NCBI RefSeq assembly: GCF_016863315.1 | Contig: NZ_BOOQ01000019.1 | Coordinates: forward strand, 62,001-126,000 | DNA length: 64,000 nt | Direction of reading: 5' to 3' | Source of the DNA: Planotetraspora silvatica | GTDB taxonomy: Bacteria > Actinomycetota > Actinomycetes > Streptosporangiales > Streptosporangiaceae | In this document: positions 28,446 through 32,327 of the stretch, piece by piece | Layout of the letters: the number at the start of each line of letters is the position of its first letter | How positions within the stretch are numbered: the first letter of the stretch is position 1 | Notes under the pieces: model-generated | What the model saw: the letters and a program-made list of their open reading frames with translations, nothing else | Database searches by the model: none | What the model was told of the DNA's origin: nothing | Made by a program: the position numbers and the translations under genes

Positions 28446-28967
28446 TCAGTCGACCGGCGCCTGACGCGCCCTCTGGTAGTGCCGCCGGGCCTTCATCCTG
28501 TTCCCGCAGGCGGCCATCGAGCACCAACGGGCCTGATTGGTCTTGCTGCGGTCGAGCAGGAAGAGGTGACACTCGCCGTTGGCGCACGGCCTGAGCCGTC
28601 CCGGCTTCGTGCTTTCCACGGCGCTCCAGGACAGGACGGCTCTGACCGCCGACGCGCGCTCCGCCGGTGCGTCGAGGGACCATTCCACCCCGCGCTCCGA
28701 CACGACCGGGCGGTAGCCGACCCCTTCGAGGAACGGCGCCAGGACGGTCGGCGGCCGCTCACCGCTTACGACCGACTGCAGCGCGTCCCGCGCCTGCCGC
28801 GCGGCCTCCCAATCGGCGTGCGACCCGGATCCTCCTCGTTCCCGTAGCCAGACCCGTGCCTCGGCGGCGTCGCTCAGATGGTCCTGAACGACGCCGTCGA
28901 CGATCGGCGTGCTGTTGAGCAGGTCCAAGAGTGCGTCTTCGTCCGCCCGCGTCGTGGGCACGTACAT
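28446..28967 (-). CDS. CGNR zinc-finger (ABATE-domain) regulator
   Basis: A 173-residue protein with an N-terminal ABATE domain (about residues 8-120) and the C-terminal CGNR zinc finger CANGECHLFLLD...RWCSMAACGNRMKARRHY, with the four Cys in place. These proteins are predicted stress-responsive transcription factors. The gene is divergent from an alpha/beta hydrolase, its likely target, and the shared 83-base gap has two equally spaced TAACC/GGTTA dyads. Confidence 0.88.
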   Translation of the reverse strand: MYVPTTRADEDALLDLLNSTPIVDGVVQDHLSDAAEARVWLRERGGSGSHADWEAARQARDALQSVVSGERPPTVLAPFLEGVGYRPVVSERGVEWSLDAPAERASAVRAVLSWSAVESTKPGRLRPCANGECHLFLLDRSKTNQARWCSMAACGNRMKARRHYQRARQAPVD

Positions 28968-28970
28968 CTC

Positions 28971-29047
28971 TAACCTCTCTTCTTTATTTGACAGGTTACA
29001 TCTTGTCCTGGTTTGCTGCTAACCATCCAAGCCACTCATGGGGGTTA
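28971..29047. promoter_or_regulatory. Two equal TAACC-N18-GGTTA dyads in the CGNR/hydrolase gap
   Basis: TAACC (28971-28975) and GGTTA (28994-28998), then TAACC (29020-29024) and GGTTA (29043-29047): both pairs are separated by exactly 18 bases and the two dyads start 49 bases apart. A TTGACA box (28988-28993) lies in the first. The outer half-sites also serve as parts of the ribosome sites of the two genes. Confidence 0.5.
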
Positions 29048-29050
29048 GTT

Positions 29051-29923
29051 ATGGGGAACGTCCACCACCGTTACGCGACCGTGCAGGGCCGGCGGCTCTT
29101 CTACCGGGAGGCCGGACCGGCCGACGCACCCGTGCTCGTGTTGCTGCACGGCTTTCCGACCAGCTCGTTCATGTTCCGCGATCTCATCCCGGCCCTGGCG
29201 GACCGGTACCACGTCATCGCCCCCGACCACCTGGGCTTCGGGCTGTCCGACGCGCCGTCCGCCGACGAGTTCGACTACACCTTCGACGCGCTCACCGAAC
29301 TGACCGAGGGTCTGCTGAGCCAGTTGGGGGTCTCCCGCTACGCCATCTATGTCCAGGACTACGGCGCCCCGATCGGATGGCGGCTCGCCCTGAACCGGCC
29401 CGACGCGATCACGGCGATCATCACCCAGAGCGGCAACGCCTACGATGCCGGGTTCGTCGAGAACTTCTGGGAGACCGTCTGGGCCTACCAGCGCGAGCAG
29501 ACCCCGGAGACCGAGACGGCCATCCGGCAGGCCCTCACCCTCGAGGCGATCAAGTGGCAGTACGTCACCGGGGTGCAGGACGAGACCGTCGTCAGCCCGG
29601 ACACGTGGCATCACGACTTCGACCTGGTCTCACGCCCGGGCAACGACCGCGTCCAACTGGCCCTGTTCCTGGATTACGCGACCAATCTCCCGCTCTACCC
29701 GCGCCTGCACGAATACCTTCGCTCGCGGCAGACGCCCCTGCTCGCCGTCTGGGGACAGGGCGATGAGATCTTCGGCCCTCCGGGCGCTCTGGCCTTCGCC
29801 GACGACCTGCCCGACGCCCGGATCCATCTCCTCGAGGGTGGCCACTTCCTCCTCGAGAGCGCACTGGACGAGGTCACCGCCCTGATCCGAACCTTCCTCG
29901 CCCATTCACTGCCCAAGGACTGA
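29051..29923 (+). CDS. Alpha/beta hydrolase, epoxide hydrolase / haloalkane dehalogenase-like
   Basis: A 290-residue alpha/beta hydrolase. It has the oxyanion motif HGFPTSS, the nucleophile Asp in VQDYGAP, the acid region in LAVWGQGDEIF and the catalytic His in GGHFLLES. An Asp nucleophile is the mark of epoxide hydrolases and haloalkane dehalogenases. The residue after it is Tyr where true dehalogenases have a halide-binding Trp, which argues for an epoxide hydrolase or a different ester-type substrate. GTTAGTT-ATG start with a G-rich ribosome site. Divergent from the CGNR regulator. Confidence 0.85.
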   Translation: MGNVHHRYATVQGRRLFYREAGPADAPVLVLLHGFPTSSFMFRDLIPALADRYHVIAPDHLGFGLSDAPSADEFDYTFDALTELTEGLLSQLGVSRYAIYVQDYGAPIGWRLALNRPDAITAIITQSGNAYDAGFVENFWETVWAYQREQTPETETAIRQALTLEAIKWQYVTGVQDETVVSPDTWHHDFDLVSRPGNDRVQLALFLDYATNLPLYPRLHEYLRSRQTPLLAVWGQGDEIFGPPGALAFADDLPDARIHLLEGGHFLLESALDEVTALIRTFLAHSLPKD

Positions 29924-29939
29924 CCCCCCCCACCTGGGG

Positions 29940-30338
29940 CGTGATCATGCACAGGTTCGTGGATTGCCCGCCTGAGCAGCAAACACTCCCGCCGTGATCA
30001 TGCACGGATTCGTGAGCTGCGGGCATGACCAGCGGAATCTCCACCCGTGATCATGCACACTTTCCGGGAAACGGCCCCTGAACTGGGACGACATCATCCG
30101 TGATCATGCAAAGTCAGGGGCATGCGAACAGGGCCGCCCAAGATGTACGGCCGGCCGAGCGTGACACTGCATGATCACGAAAGACGATTCGCCTGCTCAC
30201 CGGCCCCCCACCCGAACCTGCGCATGATCACGGAGAGAGTCTTCGCTGGTCGACCATGTAGATCACGAACTTGTGCATGATCACGGTTAAAGTTCGGGCA
30301 GGTCAGGGGGCCTTCATGCGAATGTGTGCATGATCACG
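29940..30338. repeat. Symmetric array of eight 12-bp repeats with exact 53-bp period (4 direct + 4 inverted)
   Basis: CGTGATCATGCA stands at 29940, 29993, 30046 and 30099; its reverse complement stands at 30168, 30221 (one mismatch), 30274 and 30327. Every step inside a block is exactly 53 bp and the whole is symmetric about 30139. The 41-base spacers are also related when read in core orientation: TTC at spacer positions 5-7, GA at 23-24, C at 26 and G at 28 are shared by all six. The centre (30111-30167) is different but holds a compressed spacer piece at 30114-30128. The array fills the gap between two convergent genes, and its last copy supplies the stop codon of the Gfo/Idh gene. It contains no convincing gene. 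As RNA it could fold into one long nested hairpin. Confidence 0.9.
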
Positions 30339-31458
30339 CGGGGGTTATGGGGGTGGCGGGGGTTGTGGGGGTGGTGGATTCGCCGGTGGTGGGGGGGAGG
30401 TCGTTGAGTTCGAGCAGCCTGGTCACCGCTTGCTGCGCGGTCACGATGTCCTCCAAGGCTCCCGGCACTCCGGTGAGAGGCGGTACCCCGGAGGTCACCA
30501 TCGCGTGGAAGGCCGCGAGTTCACGTTCGAAGGACGGGGTGACGTCGCTGAACGCCACCCGCCCTTCGGCGCTCACGTCGGTGAGCCGGGTGGACGCGCC
30601 CAGCAGGTACGGCGTGGGGAAGACCATCTCGAAGGTGCCGGTGGCGTGGTGCACGGCCACGGTCTCCCGGTAGGCGGGATAGTCCTCCAGATAATGCCAA
30701 TGGATGGCATAACGCCCACCGGCGCGCAACGGGCCCGCCATCTCGACCGAGCGCCCGCCCGCTCCAGGCCAGGTCGTCACGTGGTCGACGCCCGACGGTC
30801 CGCCCGCGAGAAGGCGCAGCAGCGACAGATCGTGGCAGATGCTGTTGAGGATGGTCGTGTAGAGCCCGCGCGCCTCGGGCGGGGCGTCCCCGATGGCGGC
30901 GCGGATCAGCTCGTCCTCCCGGGCCCGGAACCTGTCGAGAACCTCGGCGGGCACGTCTGCGGGCGGTTCCGGGAGCCGGGCGAACGCCAACTGCGACCGG
31001 TCGCTCGGATGGAGCACGGTCACCTGGACGGCACGCACGTCGGCGGCCCGTCCGGCGACCCGCTGCACGGCGGGGTCGTACTGCTTCATGTACCCGACCA
31101 TCAGCCGGGGTCGCCCGGGATCCTCCAGTTCCGCGATCTCGGCCGCCTCCGCGCGGGTGTAGGCGAGAGGCTTCTCGCACAGTACGGCGTAGCCCCGGCG
31201 GAGCGCGTCGACGACCACGCGCCCGTGCGAACCCGACGTCAGCACCAGCACGGCGTCGAAGCCGCCCGCGTCGAGCATCTCCGTCACGTCGGTGTAGCGC
31301 CCGGCCACGCCGTACCGGTCGGCCATCCGCGCGGTCAGCGAGGCCGACAGGTCGCAGAGGGCGACCACCTCGAACAGGTCGCCGCGCCGCTCCAGCAGGG
31401 GCAGGTGCACCGTCTGCGCGATGACGCCGAGCCCGGCCACCGCCACCTTGAGCCTCAC
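30334..31458 (-). CDS. Gfo/Idh/MocA-family sugar oxidoreductase
   Basis: A 374-residue NAD(P)-dependent dehydrogenase: Rossmann motif VAGLGVIAQTVHLP (7-20), CEKPLAY (the EKP motif with catalytic Lys) and the C-terminal alpha/beta domain. It would oxidise or reduce a sugar or inositol derivative. Its GTG overlaps the stop of the isomerase gene (GTGA). It is last in the seven-gene leftward sugar operon. The final 18 residues are a low-complexity Thr/Pro tail (TTPTTPATPITPA) read from a G/T-rich stretch that runs into the 53-bp repeat array, which provides the TGA stop. Confidence 0.9.
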   Translation of the reverse strand: MRLKVAVAGLGVIAQTVHLPLLERRGDLFEVVALCDLSASLTARMADRYGVAGRYTDVTEMLDAGGFDAVLVLTSGSHGRVVVDALRRGYAVLCEKPLAYTRAEAAEIAELEDPGRPRLMVGYMKQYDPAVQRVAGRAADVRAVQVTVLHPSDRSQLAFARLPEPPADVPAEVLDRFRAREDELIRAAIGDAPPEARGLYTTILNSICHDLSLLRLLAGGPSGVDHVTTWPGAGGRSVEMAGPLRAGGRYAIHWHYLEDYPAYRETVAVHHATGTFEMVFPTPYLLGASTRLTDVSAEGRVAFSDVTPSFERELAAFHAMVTSGVPPLTGVPGALEDIVTAQQAVTRLLELNDLPPTTGESTTPTTPATPITPA

Positions 31459-32327
31459 AGGCCCACGCTCCTCAGAAGGTCCCGGTTGGCCCGCTGGTCG
31501 GCGAGGATCGCGCCGAGGTCCTGGCCGGTGGCGGGCGCGTCCTGCTCGATCACGATCCAGCCCTGATAGCCGACCTCGCGGAGCACGTCGGCGAACCCGG
31601 CGATGTCCACCTCACCCCGTCCCAGCGCGGGGAAGCAGCCGTTCGCCACCGCCGTGGTCAGGTCGCCGCCCCGGGCGAGAACCGCACGGTCGGCGTCCTT
31701 GACGTGGACCTGTGTCACGCGACCGGACCAGGCCCTGAGCGCGGCGACGGGGTCGCCTCCCGCGAGCCAGAGGTGGCCGGTGTCGAGGCAGATCCCGACG
31801 TCGGTGAGCTCGAGGAGCCTTTCGACGTCCTCCGGCGTCTCCACGTCGGTGCCGAGGTGGTAGTGGAAGGCCGGTTCCAGGCCGGCCTCACGGCACACCT
31901 CGGCCGCGGCCTGCACCCGGGCGGCGAACTCCGGCCAGTCCTCAGCGGCGATCCCGGGGGCCGCGCCTCCGGGACGCGCGAACCTGGCGACGTTGCTCGG
32001 GCAGGCAAGCGTCGGCCTGGGGGCGAAACGGGGGTCGTCCACGGGGACGCTCGCGAACACCTCGAGCGCCGCCCGCAGGCCGGTGAGGTCGGCGTCGAAC
32101 CCGGCGGCGTCGCCGTACCTCAGGTCGACCCAGCCGCCCGCCAGCCCGAGGCCCGCCCGCGCGAGATCGCCCGCTCCCAGGTAGCCGATCGGGCCGGAGT
32201 CGACCCCGTCGTATCCGGCCTCGGCCATCCCGGCGAGCAGTTCGCCGGGGCCGATCAGGTCGGTGTCGTGCCGGTAGATCCCGAAGTTCACAGGGGCGCT
32301 CGCCACCCGTGTCGTCGTGACTTCCAA
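31455..32327 (-). CDS. Sugar phosphate isomerase/epimerase (AP-endonuclease-2-like TIM barrel)
   Basis: About 290 residues of the xylose-isomerase-like TIM barrel family (IolE/hydroxypyruvate isomerase relatives). Metal-binding residues fall in FHYHLGTDVE, CLDTGHLWLAGGD and TQVHVKDAD, and it ends with WIVIEQDAP. It probably acts with the Gfo/Idh dehydrogenase on the same sugar. TTG start at 32327, chosen because GGAGGAG lies 6 bases upstream; the first ATG-type alternatives would enter the beta-galactosidase gene. Fourteen bases separate it from that gene. Confidence 0.82.
   Translation of the reverse strand: MEVTTTRVASAPVNFGIYRHDTDLIGPGELLAGMAEAGYDGVDSGPIGYLGAGDLARAGLGLAGGWVDLRYGDAAGFDADLTGLRAALEVFASVPVDDPRFAPRPTLACPSNVARFARPGGAAPGIAAEDWPEFAARVQAAAEVCREAGLEPAFHYHLGTDVETPEDVERLLELTDVGICLDTGHLWLAGGDPVAALRAWSGRVTQVHVKDADRAVLARGGDLTTAVANGCFPALGRGEVDIAGFADVLREVGYQGWIVIEQDAPATGQDLGAILADQRANRDLLRSVGL

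Follow-up and report, generated by a model that had tools for sequence, protein, structure and literature searches.

What purpose could be served by an exactly periodic array of short repeats that turns to face itself between two converging bacterial genes? The question is raised by positions 29940 to 30338 of the window, by which we mean the whole 64,000-nucleotide stretch of DNA analysed here. A sequence-only reading had described eight like copies of a 12-bp core at this locus. The positions are correct: plus-strand cores start at 29940, 29993, 30046 and 30099 and minus-strand cores at 30168, 30221, 30274 and 30327, every step within an arm measuring 53 bp. The likeness is not quite complete, in that the copy at 30221 is CGCATGATCACG, with one mismatch (92%). 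The array does occupy a convergent intergenic region, in which the ends of a hydrolase gene (plus) and an oxidoreductase gene (minus) face each other, with the hydrolase stop at 29923, 16 bases ahead of the first core, and the TGA of the minus-strand gene inside the outermost minus-strand core. The features are:

28931 to 29923, plus strand: upstream gene, alpha/beta hydrolase; start uncertain, our own gene caller favouring 29051
29940 to 29951, plus strand: core copy 1, outermost of the plus arm, CGTGATCATGCA (sequence match)
29993 to 30004, plus strand: core copy 2 of the plus arm (sequence match)
30046 to 30057, plus strand: core copy 3 of the plus arm (sequence match)
30099 to 30110, plus strand: core copy 4, innermost of the plus arm (sequence match)
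29940 to 30098, plus strand: three full 53-bp units of the plus arm, with core, T17T18C19 and the G35A36..C38.G40 columns
30111 to 30167, no strand: 57-bp centre between the facing arms, without a U-tract terminator
30168 to 30179, minus strand: innermost core of the minus arm (sequence match)
30221 to 30232, minus strand: core of the minus arm with one mismatch (sequence match)
30274 to 30285, minus strand: core of the minus arm (sequence match)
30327 to 30338, minus strand: outermost core of the minus arm, containing the TGA stop of the minus-strand gene
30180 to 30338, minus strand: three full 53-bp units of the minus arm
30334 to 31458, minus strand: convergent gene, GFO/IDH/MocA oxidoreductase

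The centre measures 57 bp here and 57-59 bp in three congeners (G004, G003 and G002). The motif TACGGCCGGC, which it contains, was rejected as special, having 25 copies in 0.78 Mb against 14 of the reversed word and only 2 near arrays. Because the 53-bp period is not divisible by 3 and each core contains TGA, the stops of three successive units at 29940-30338 fall into all three sense frames, which may be an incidental advantage of this spacing. Elsewhere in the window, ARAGORN reports an undetermined tRNA-like match at 31801-31894 on the plus strand, which lies inside a reversed coding gene and is probably spurious.

A repeat with a fixed 53-bp period, in hundreds of copies

The array is real and one of hundreds. 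The exact 12-bp core has 388 + 363 = 751 matches in the 8.66-Mb genome, about one per 11.5 kb and distributed over many contigs of the chromosome assembly, against none for the word read backwards, so that chance cannot account for it. In 0.78 Mb of this genome (contigs C1 and C2 and the window) we found 37 oriented arrays, one of them (C2:346754) doubtful as it overlaps another, and each of the 116 exact cores in this DNA belongs to an oriented array or stands no more than 60 bp from one, counting as such the weak two-core site at C2:65062. At many loci an arm holds 2-6 core copies.

The period is very nearly invariant. Among 568 core-to-core steps of 50-54 bp, taken between neighbouring same-strand cores of C1, C2, the window and 96 loci of named genomes, 524 measure 53 bp, 28 measure 52, 12 measure 54, and 50 and 51 occur twice each; other steps are rare (106 in six cases, 62 in three, 42 in two, the rest single), with none of 43, 63 or 64, and the distribution has no peak one helical turn away from 53. 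The proposal that the spacers share the columns TTC, GA, C and G, made from six spacers, holds across the clade: in 523 distinct units, T17 is conserved in 92%, T18 in 99%, C19 in 100%, G35 in 80%, A36 in 86%, C38 in 93% and G40 in 99%, and the full set of conserved columns outside the core comprises A14, T17 T18 C19 G20, Y34 G35 A36 C37 C38 W39 G40 S41, A46 and C47. Few of these units are alike, given that 489 of the 523 were left after removal of those at least 85% identical outside the core.

A search for the core with its 53-bp spacing, in this genome and its relatives, yielded arrays in all five genomes of the genus that were covered (this one and G001-G004), with between 242 and 940 exact cores each. 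A chance local duplication had been considered for the event that close relatives should lack the array; the array withstands this check, since a facing array stands at the same locus in three of the four congeners (G002, G003 and G004), with none at that gene end in G001, and the neighbouring genus (G085) has a reversed array only, beside another gene. When two cores (position 8 free) were required 53 bp apart with at most 2 mismatches, 16 of 341 genomes of the family matched, in 7 of 68 genera, and controls gave 0 throughout. Strong sets are found in genus g1 (5/5 genomes), g80 (G085), g86 (5 of the 15 genomes listed) and g55 (2/2); G077 has two matches, and G121 and G158 a single weak match each. 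When named genomes were scanned for core pairs with a 53-bp step, at least 96 stretches emerged, all from Planotetraspora among the matches listed.

The same 53-bp search in 394 genomes of the class, including this one, found six that match, our own and G143 together with four from outside the family, namely G291 (6 matches), G232 and G350 (1 each) and G453 (a weak one), while facing cores 0-30 bp apart occur in six of the 394 (own 14, G143 8, G291 30, G438 11, G232 2, G350 1). Thus the core, with a lineage-specific extension behind it, is shared by three more actinobacterial families, mostly at gene ends; of the loci read in them, a majority lie at a gene end and a majority of pairs are facing. 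G291 has one-direction as well as mixed-orientation clusters, with one divergent locus of 17, and G232 has one divergent pair. The TGA of the core serves as the stop codon at both G350 loci, at one of five G438 loci and in one of 17 G291 clusters. Since neighbouring cores in G291 are not evenly spaced, the strict 53-bp period is a property of the Streptosporangiaceae sets and the core is the wider element. In another genus of the family, G028 holds 71 exact cores; in the 12 stretches seen there (L187-L198) the core sits mainly in near-perfect palindromes of ~63 bp, some intergenic regions having two or three of them some 220-500 bp apart. An origin from phages or plasmids was rejected, the array pattern having 0 matches in viral contigs and blastn none against phages and plasmids.

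Facing order and position at gene ends

Wherever arrays of opposite orientation meet, the forward array comes first and the reversed one second, so that the two face each other (93 of 93 cases, with only identical sequences removed and orthologues of different species counted apart; two of the 93, L120 and L146 with a gap of 39, are artefacts of the core's partial palindrome). One exception lies outside the 93, a single exact reversed core ahead of the forward array at C2:346754. The gap between the innermost facing cores also has preferred lengths, 13 bp in 22 of the 93, 29 in 8, 2 in 6 (all in g86 and g55 loci) and 23 and 35 in 4 each, and no conserved sequence inside it in these cases. A gap with preferred lengths but a free sequence suggests contact between the two arms as well, by way of the putative protein discussed below.

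That the arrays are intergenic at convergent ends, a point that had been raised for checking, describes an enrichment and not a rule. Among 135 loci from Planotetraspora in the wide sense (stretches of our genome, G003 and G004 and named loci, including Planotetraspora sp. A-T 1434), 57 were called convergent, 61 tandem and 17 divergent, against 179, 586 and 284 of the 1049 background intergenic regions (50 bp or longer) in this DNA; the calls come from our own codon-usage script rather than a published gene finder, some being doubtful and some strand calls possibly wrong. A single orientation is present in 61 of the 135. One-sided arrays in tandem intergenic regions (all groups, n=33) are sense in 21 and antisense in 12, and where a tandem region holds a facing pair one arm is always antisense.

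Many arrays follow stop codons closely. In three genomes, 39 of 57 oriented arrays have a sense stop codon between -70 and +60 relative to their edge, and in 10 of the 57 it is the TGA of the core itself; the edge of an antisense gene lies within the same interval in 3. On re-examination of 14 arrays, several turned out to be the partner arm in a facing pair between tandem genes; tRNA or tmRNA genes, considered as the cause of arrays not behind a stop codon, were rejected, none lying near these 14. The arrays cannot be a general terminator, since the DNA of our genome that was covered shows 25 sense-array ends against 669 called genes. The neighbours are ordinary and mixed (subtilase, MerR, lumazine synthase, ThiI, HemN-type radical SAM and Glycos_transf_3 among 8 proteins scanned), and the arrays thus mark gene ends, not a pathway. 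In three named Planotetraspora species (L132, L106, L078), arrays on both sides face across the whole of a gene that we take to be typA/bipA. A core outside any regular array (C2:65115 of our genome, L034) is conserved in our genome, G003 and G004 between tandem genes; the gene whose 3' end lies close by presumably resembles, by eye, the glutamate synthase small subunit.

The hairpin excess seen at other convergent ends is missing from array-bearing ones. The median hairpin excess in the 100 bases behind the stop, computed with our own routine over four dinucleotide shuffles per end, is -0.9 kcal/mol at 39 array ends (from our genome, G003 and G004, orthologous ends of the three species being counted separately) versus -4.1 at 116 array-free convergent ends (p=3e-5), -2.5 at 159 tandem ends (p=0.014) and -1.0 in 108 coding windows (p=0.94), with GC differing between end classes (0.63 vs 0.73). 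At 10% of the 39 array ends the excess still exceeds 6 kcal/mol. An uncorrected first comparison of 25 array ends with 210 convergent ends in our genome's DNA agrees. Hence the arrays stand where terminator hairpins stand elsewhere. At the window locus (29800-30500) there is no U-tract. Wide centres between facing arms sometimes hold, by eye, an ordinary strong hairpin (C2:533273-533371 of our genome, L152, L105 and L134), as though arrays had been added to either flank of a common terminator serving both directions; arrays and terminators can therefore coexist, and a terminator may lie beyond the 100 bases tested. The role at transcript ends that had been proposed for the array is supported indirectly, by its position behind stops and by the missing hairpins.

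Selection on the unit and the possible reader of the arrays

Comparison between species separates the constrained parts of the unit from the free ones. Seven of our array-bearing intergenic regions have both flanking genes paired to G003 and G004, and an array is present in 5 of the 7 in G003 and 6 of the 7 in G004, the weak two-core site among them being scored in our genome only; in the cases without a true array in G003, the two flanking genes have become separated. In 26 orthologous unit pairs with G003, differences amount to 0.029 in the core, 0.187 in motif columns and 0.44 in free columns, and in 32 pairs of 53-bp units with G004 to 0.026, 0.067 and 0.19, respectively. Fourfold sites differ by 0.19 (G003) and 0.059 (G004), all non-array intergenic regions by 0.144 and 0.048, and convergent non-array regions by 0.328 (11 regions) and 0.132 (13 regions). 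Hypermutable spacers, conceivable given that free columns diverge ~2-3 times as fast as fourfold sites and 3-4 times as fast as all non-array regions, were dropped as an explanation; convergent non-array regions diverge nearly as fast, which places the free columns close to neutrality. Between species, a single length change (53 to 52) is seen among the regular steps of six loci, and non-array convergent regions have 24 gap runs to 158 substitutions (G004) and 34 to 351 (G003), i.e. one per 7 to 10. Judged by these comparisons, core, motif columns and spacing are under purifying selection, with the free columns drifting near neutral. In pairs with G004, column 14 differs in 44% and column 16 in 28%, chiefly by A-G exchange and sometimes jointly; among columns 12, 14 and 16, the latter two are A or G in most units despite this change. 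Whole units are gained or lost by arms between species, and irregular extra cores 21-31 bp outside some arms are present in one species and missing in another.

What is selected does not look like an RNA. Mutual information over 489 units gave no pairing covariation that stands out, the strongest pairs all being 1-3 bases apart; three pairs 7-9 apart (13-20, 13-21 and 43-52) slightly exceed the shuffle maximum, and at 43-52 C-G and G-T are enriched with no stem seen. Arms that run antisense to the tandem genes on either side fit the motif no worse than sense arms do (score 17.69, n=118, versus 17.88, n=134; p=0.54). As a single arm folds no better than its shuffles (z = -1.02), this equality points to the double helix as the form that is read.

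Fixed spacing, facing geometry, the lack of RNA structure and the position of arrays at hairpin sites lead us to infer a bound protein that ends or insulates transcription. We consider it an even chance that the arrays are binding sites of a host protein by which transcription is stopped or insulated at gene ends. Each 53-bp unit of double-stranded DNA would be covered by a single protein or protein unit, with its main contact at the 12-bp asymmetric core and further contacts at T17-G20, Y34-S41 and A46C47. With a step of 53 bp, roughly five turns of the helix, the copies would lie on one face of it and be bound side by side. The array at a gene end would then form a directional barrier at which RNA polymerase is halted or released directly behind the stop codon, and two facing arrays as a bidirectional barrier or insulator between adjacent genes. 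The multi-site landing pad for a DNA-binding protein, one of several options first listed, is thus the best supported, by a spacing that is held while free bases drift, by the missing covariation and by the equality of sense and antisense arms, the binder itself being putative. Speaking against a barrier, however, are the loose tie of orientation to transcription (12 of 33 one-sided tandem arrays are antisense) and the 17 divergent calls among the 135 loci, and likewise the single reversed core ahead of the array at C2:346754, the G291 clusters of mixed or single orientation and the irregular extra cores outside some arms.

Divergent and tandem loci would be less surprising if an architectural protein or a topoisomerase organised or relaxed the DNA between converging genes, any effect on transcription being secondary. 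The dispersal over the genome among ordinary, mixed neighbours, the convergent enrichment, the in-phase 53-bp period and the facing geometry also agree with such a nucleoid or topology element. By itself, however, it accounts neither for the array edges near stop codons (39/57) nor for the missing terminator hairpins just behind these edges, and we regard it as unlikely, albeit as a serious contender. The nucleoid or segregation element among the options first listed thereby stays in the field as a rival.

A third explanation would have the core as the end of a non-autonomous miniature element of the REP/REPIN/MITE kind, which spreads into gene ends and has little function for the host. Arrays are indeed patchy within genera: 5 of 15 g86 genomes have them, G291 has 30 facing pairs and its congener G247 none, and the intergenic region between the same two genes measures 430 bp in G291, with nine cores, but about 70 bp in G247, with no core, such that a copying step must have happened. 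Lineage-specific extensions with near-identical copies, e.g. the palindromes of roughly 63 bp in G028, point the same way. However, 11 of the 15 genomes tested that bear arrays or palindromes have no Y1_Tnp domain (PF01797) and 4 of 5 g86 genomes without arrays do have it, most clade loci compared are stable between species, few units are alike (489 of 523 kept), and motif and spacing are under purifying selection. We therefore hold this reading to be rather improbable for the arrays as they are; it may describe their origin rather than their present state.

An array in the 3' UTR could alternatively fold, or bind a protein, as RNA and so set mRNA 3' ends or stability, with facing arms forming one long hairpin, much as the giant nested hairpin ending two transcripts that had been suggested from the sequence. 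The frequent position behind stop codons agrees with this, as does the fold of the whole facing intergenic region at the window (z = -8.05), and two facing copies form long hairpins in G350, G438, G232 and G028. The giant hairpin, however, follows from the facing arms; a single arm has no such fold, 61 of 135 loci are one-sided, antisense arms are equally conserved, clear long-range covariation is missing from the 489 units, and, by our reading of ten G291 palindromes, their two arms vary independently. An RNA element is thus very unlikely. Rfam models had 0 matches at E <= 1 in 29800-30500. Finally, a DNA-uptake or other recognition word of the USS/DUS kind (Pasteurellaceae, Neisseria; there also in facing pairs at gene ends) would suit the word length, the copy number, the dialects between lineages and the facing pairs, but is scarcely credible given that all 116 exact cores keep to the arrays instead of being scattered through coding DNA, and we know of no role in DNA uptake for a fixed 53-bp period with conserved interior columns.

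Returning to the protein-bound barrier, a wider form of it is conceivable, which we put forward as a tentative conjecture that is somewhat more likely wrong than right: an actinobacterial protein whose reading head for CGTGATCWTGCA is conserved, and whose secondary contacts are particular to each lineage, would bind helically phased, oriented arrays behind stops, terminating or insulating in place of hairpins, and its set of sites would have been rebuilt separately in at least four actinobacterial families. The shared core with its lineage-specific extensions, and the array-bearing and array-less genomes within one genus, offer a natural experiment for a search for the protein.

Likeness to known systems

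The finding is widespread and is not explained by any of the families tested. The impression that it fits no described family was borne out for REP/REPIN-RAYT, stoperators, intrinsic terminators, CRISPR, USS/DUS and Rfam. Word searches of the open PMC literature, subscription papers lying outside their scope, found no description of such arrays, and among the matches listed for the core word in open PMC papers all appear unrelated, going by titles and the beginnings of abstracts. A CRISPR array was rejected, the spacers sharing conserved columns, the repeat core measuring 12 bp and the arms holding only 2-6 copies at many loci.

According to standard teaching, transcription in bacteria ends at hairpins or through Rho. 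Like intrinsic (Rho-independent) terminators, the arrays stand behind stop codons and have a bidirectional use between convergent genes; unlike them, an arm has no hairpin excess and, at the window locus, no U-tract. If our reading is true, phased and oriented arrays of protein-sized sites, with hairpins missing, would add a third mode of ending or insulating genes to these two, one that is directly testable by virtue of its clean sequence code. In eukaryotes, the Sal-box/TTF-I terminators of rDNA are oriented, protein-bound boxes behind the gene that stop the polymerase one way; the likeness is an analogy only, the Sal-box concerning RNA polymerase I and one type of locus. Pairs of uptake sequences form terminator stems in H. 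influenzae, as stated in an excerpt of PMC5217627.

REP, BIME and REPIN elements, as portrayed in parts of four papers (PMC3116915, PMC8049555, PMC2817692, PMC3733652), have many intergenic copies that are regularly spaced, alternating or facing, and long-lasting. The present arrays are likewise high in copy number (751 exact cores) and biased to gene ends (57 of 135 convergent). They differ in that the unit is not a palindrome, runs in one direction within an arm and has a fixed period and diverged spacers, and the core contains neither GTAG nor CGTC; palindromes of the G028 type come closer to the REP palindrome than the 53-bp units do. PF01797, the RAYT domain, has 0 matches in our genome and 10 more of the 15 array- or palindrome-bearing genomes and is present in G001, G143, G109 and G060; as it does not track arrays within g86 either, membership through RAYT/REPIN mobilisation was rejected.

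The nearest working model is provided by the stoperators of cluster A mycobacteriophages, which are bound by a repressor of the L5 type. In the portions of PMC9283540 and PMC6550527 drawn on here, stoperators are asymmetric 13-bp sites in short intergenic spaces, more than 20 per genome and oriented with transcription, at which the bound protein stops elongation and whose reversal abolishes the effect. The asymmetric 12-bp core with its extended columns agrees, by sequence, with an asymmetric site of ~13 bp, as a putative binding site. Set against the orientation rule of stoperators, 39 of 57 arrays lie behind a sense stop and one-sided tandem arrays divide into 21 sense and 12 antisense. Unlike stoperators, the arrays are chromosomal, number hundreds of sites, keep an exact 53-bp period, form facing pairs and have conserved interior columns, and it is by these differences of scale, order, location and period that we regard them as a thing of their own.
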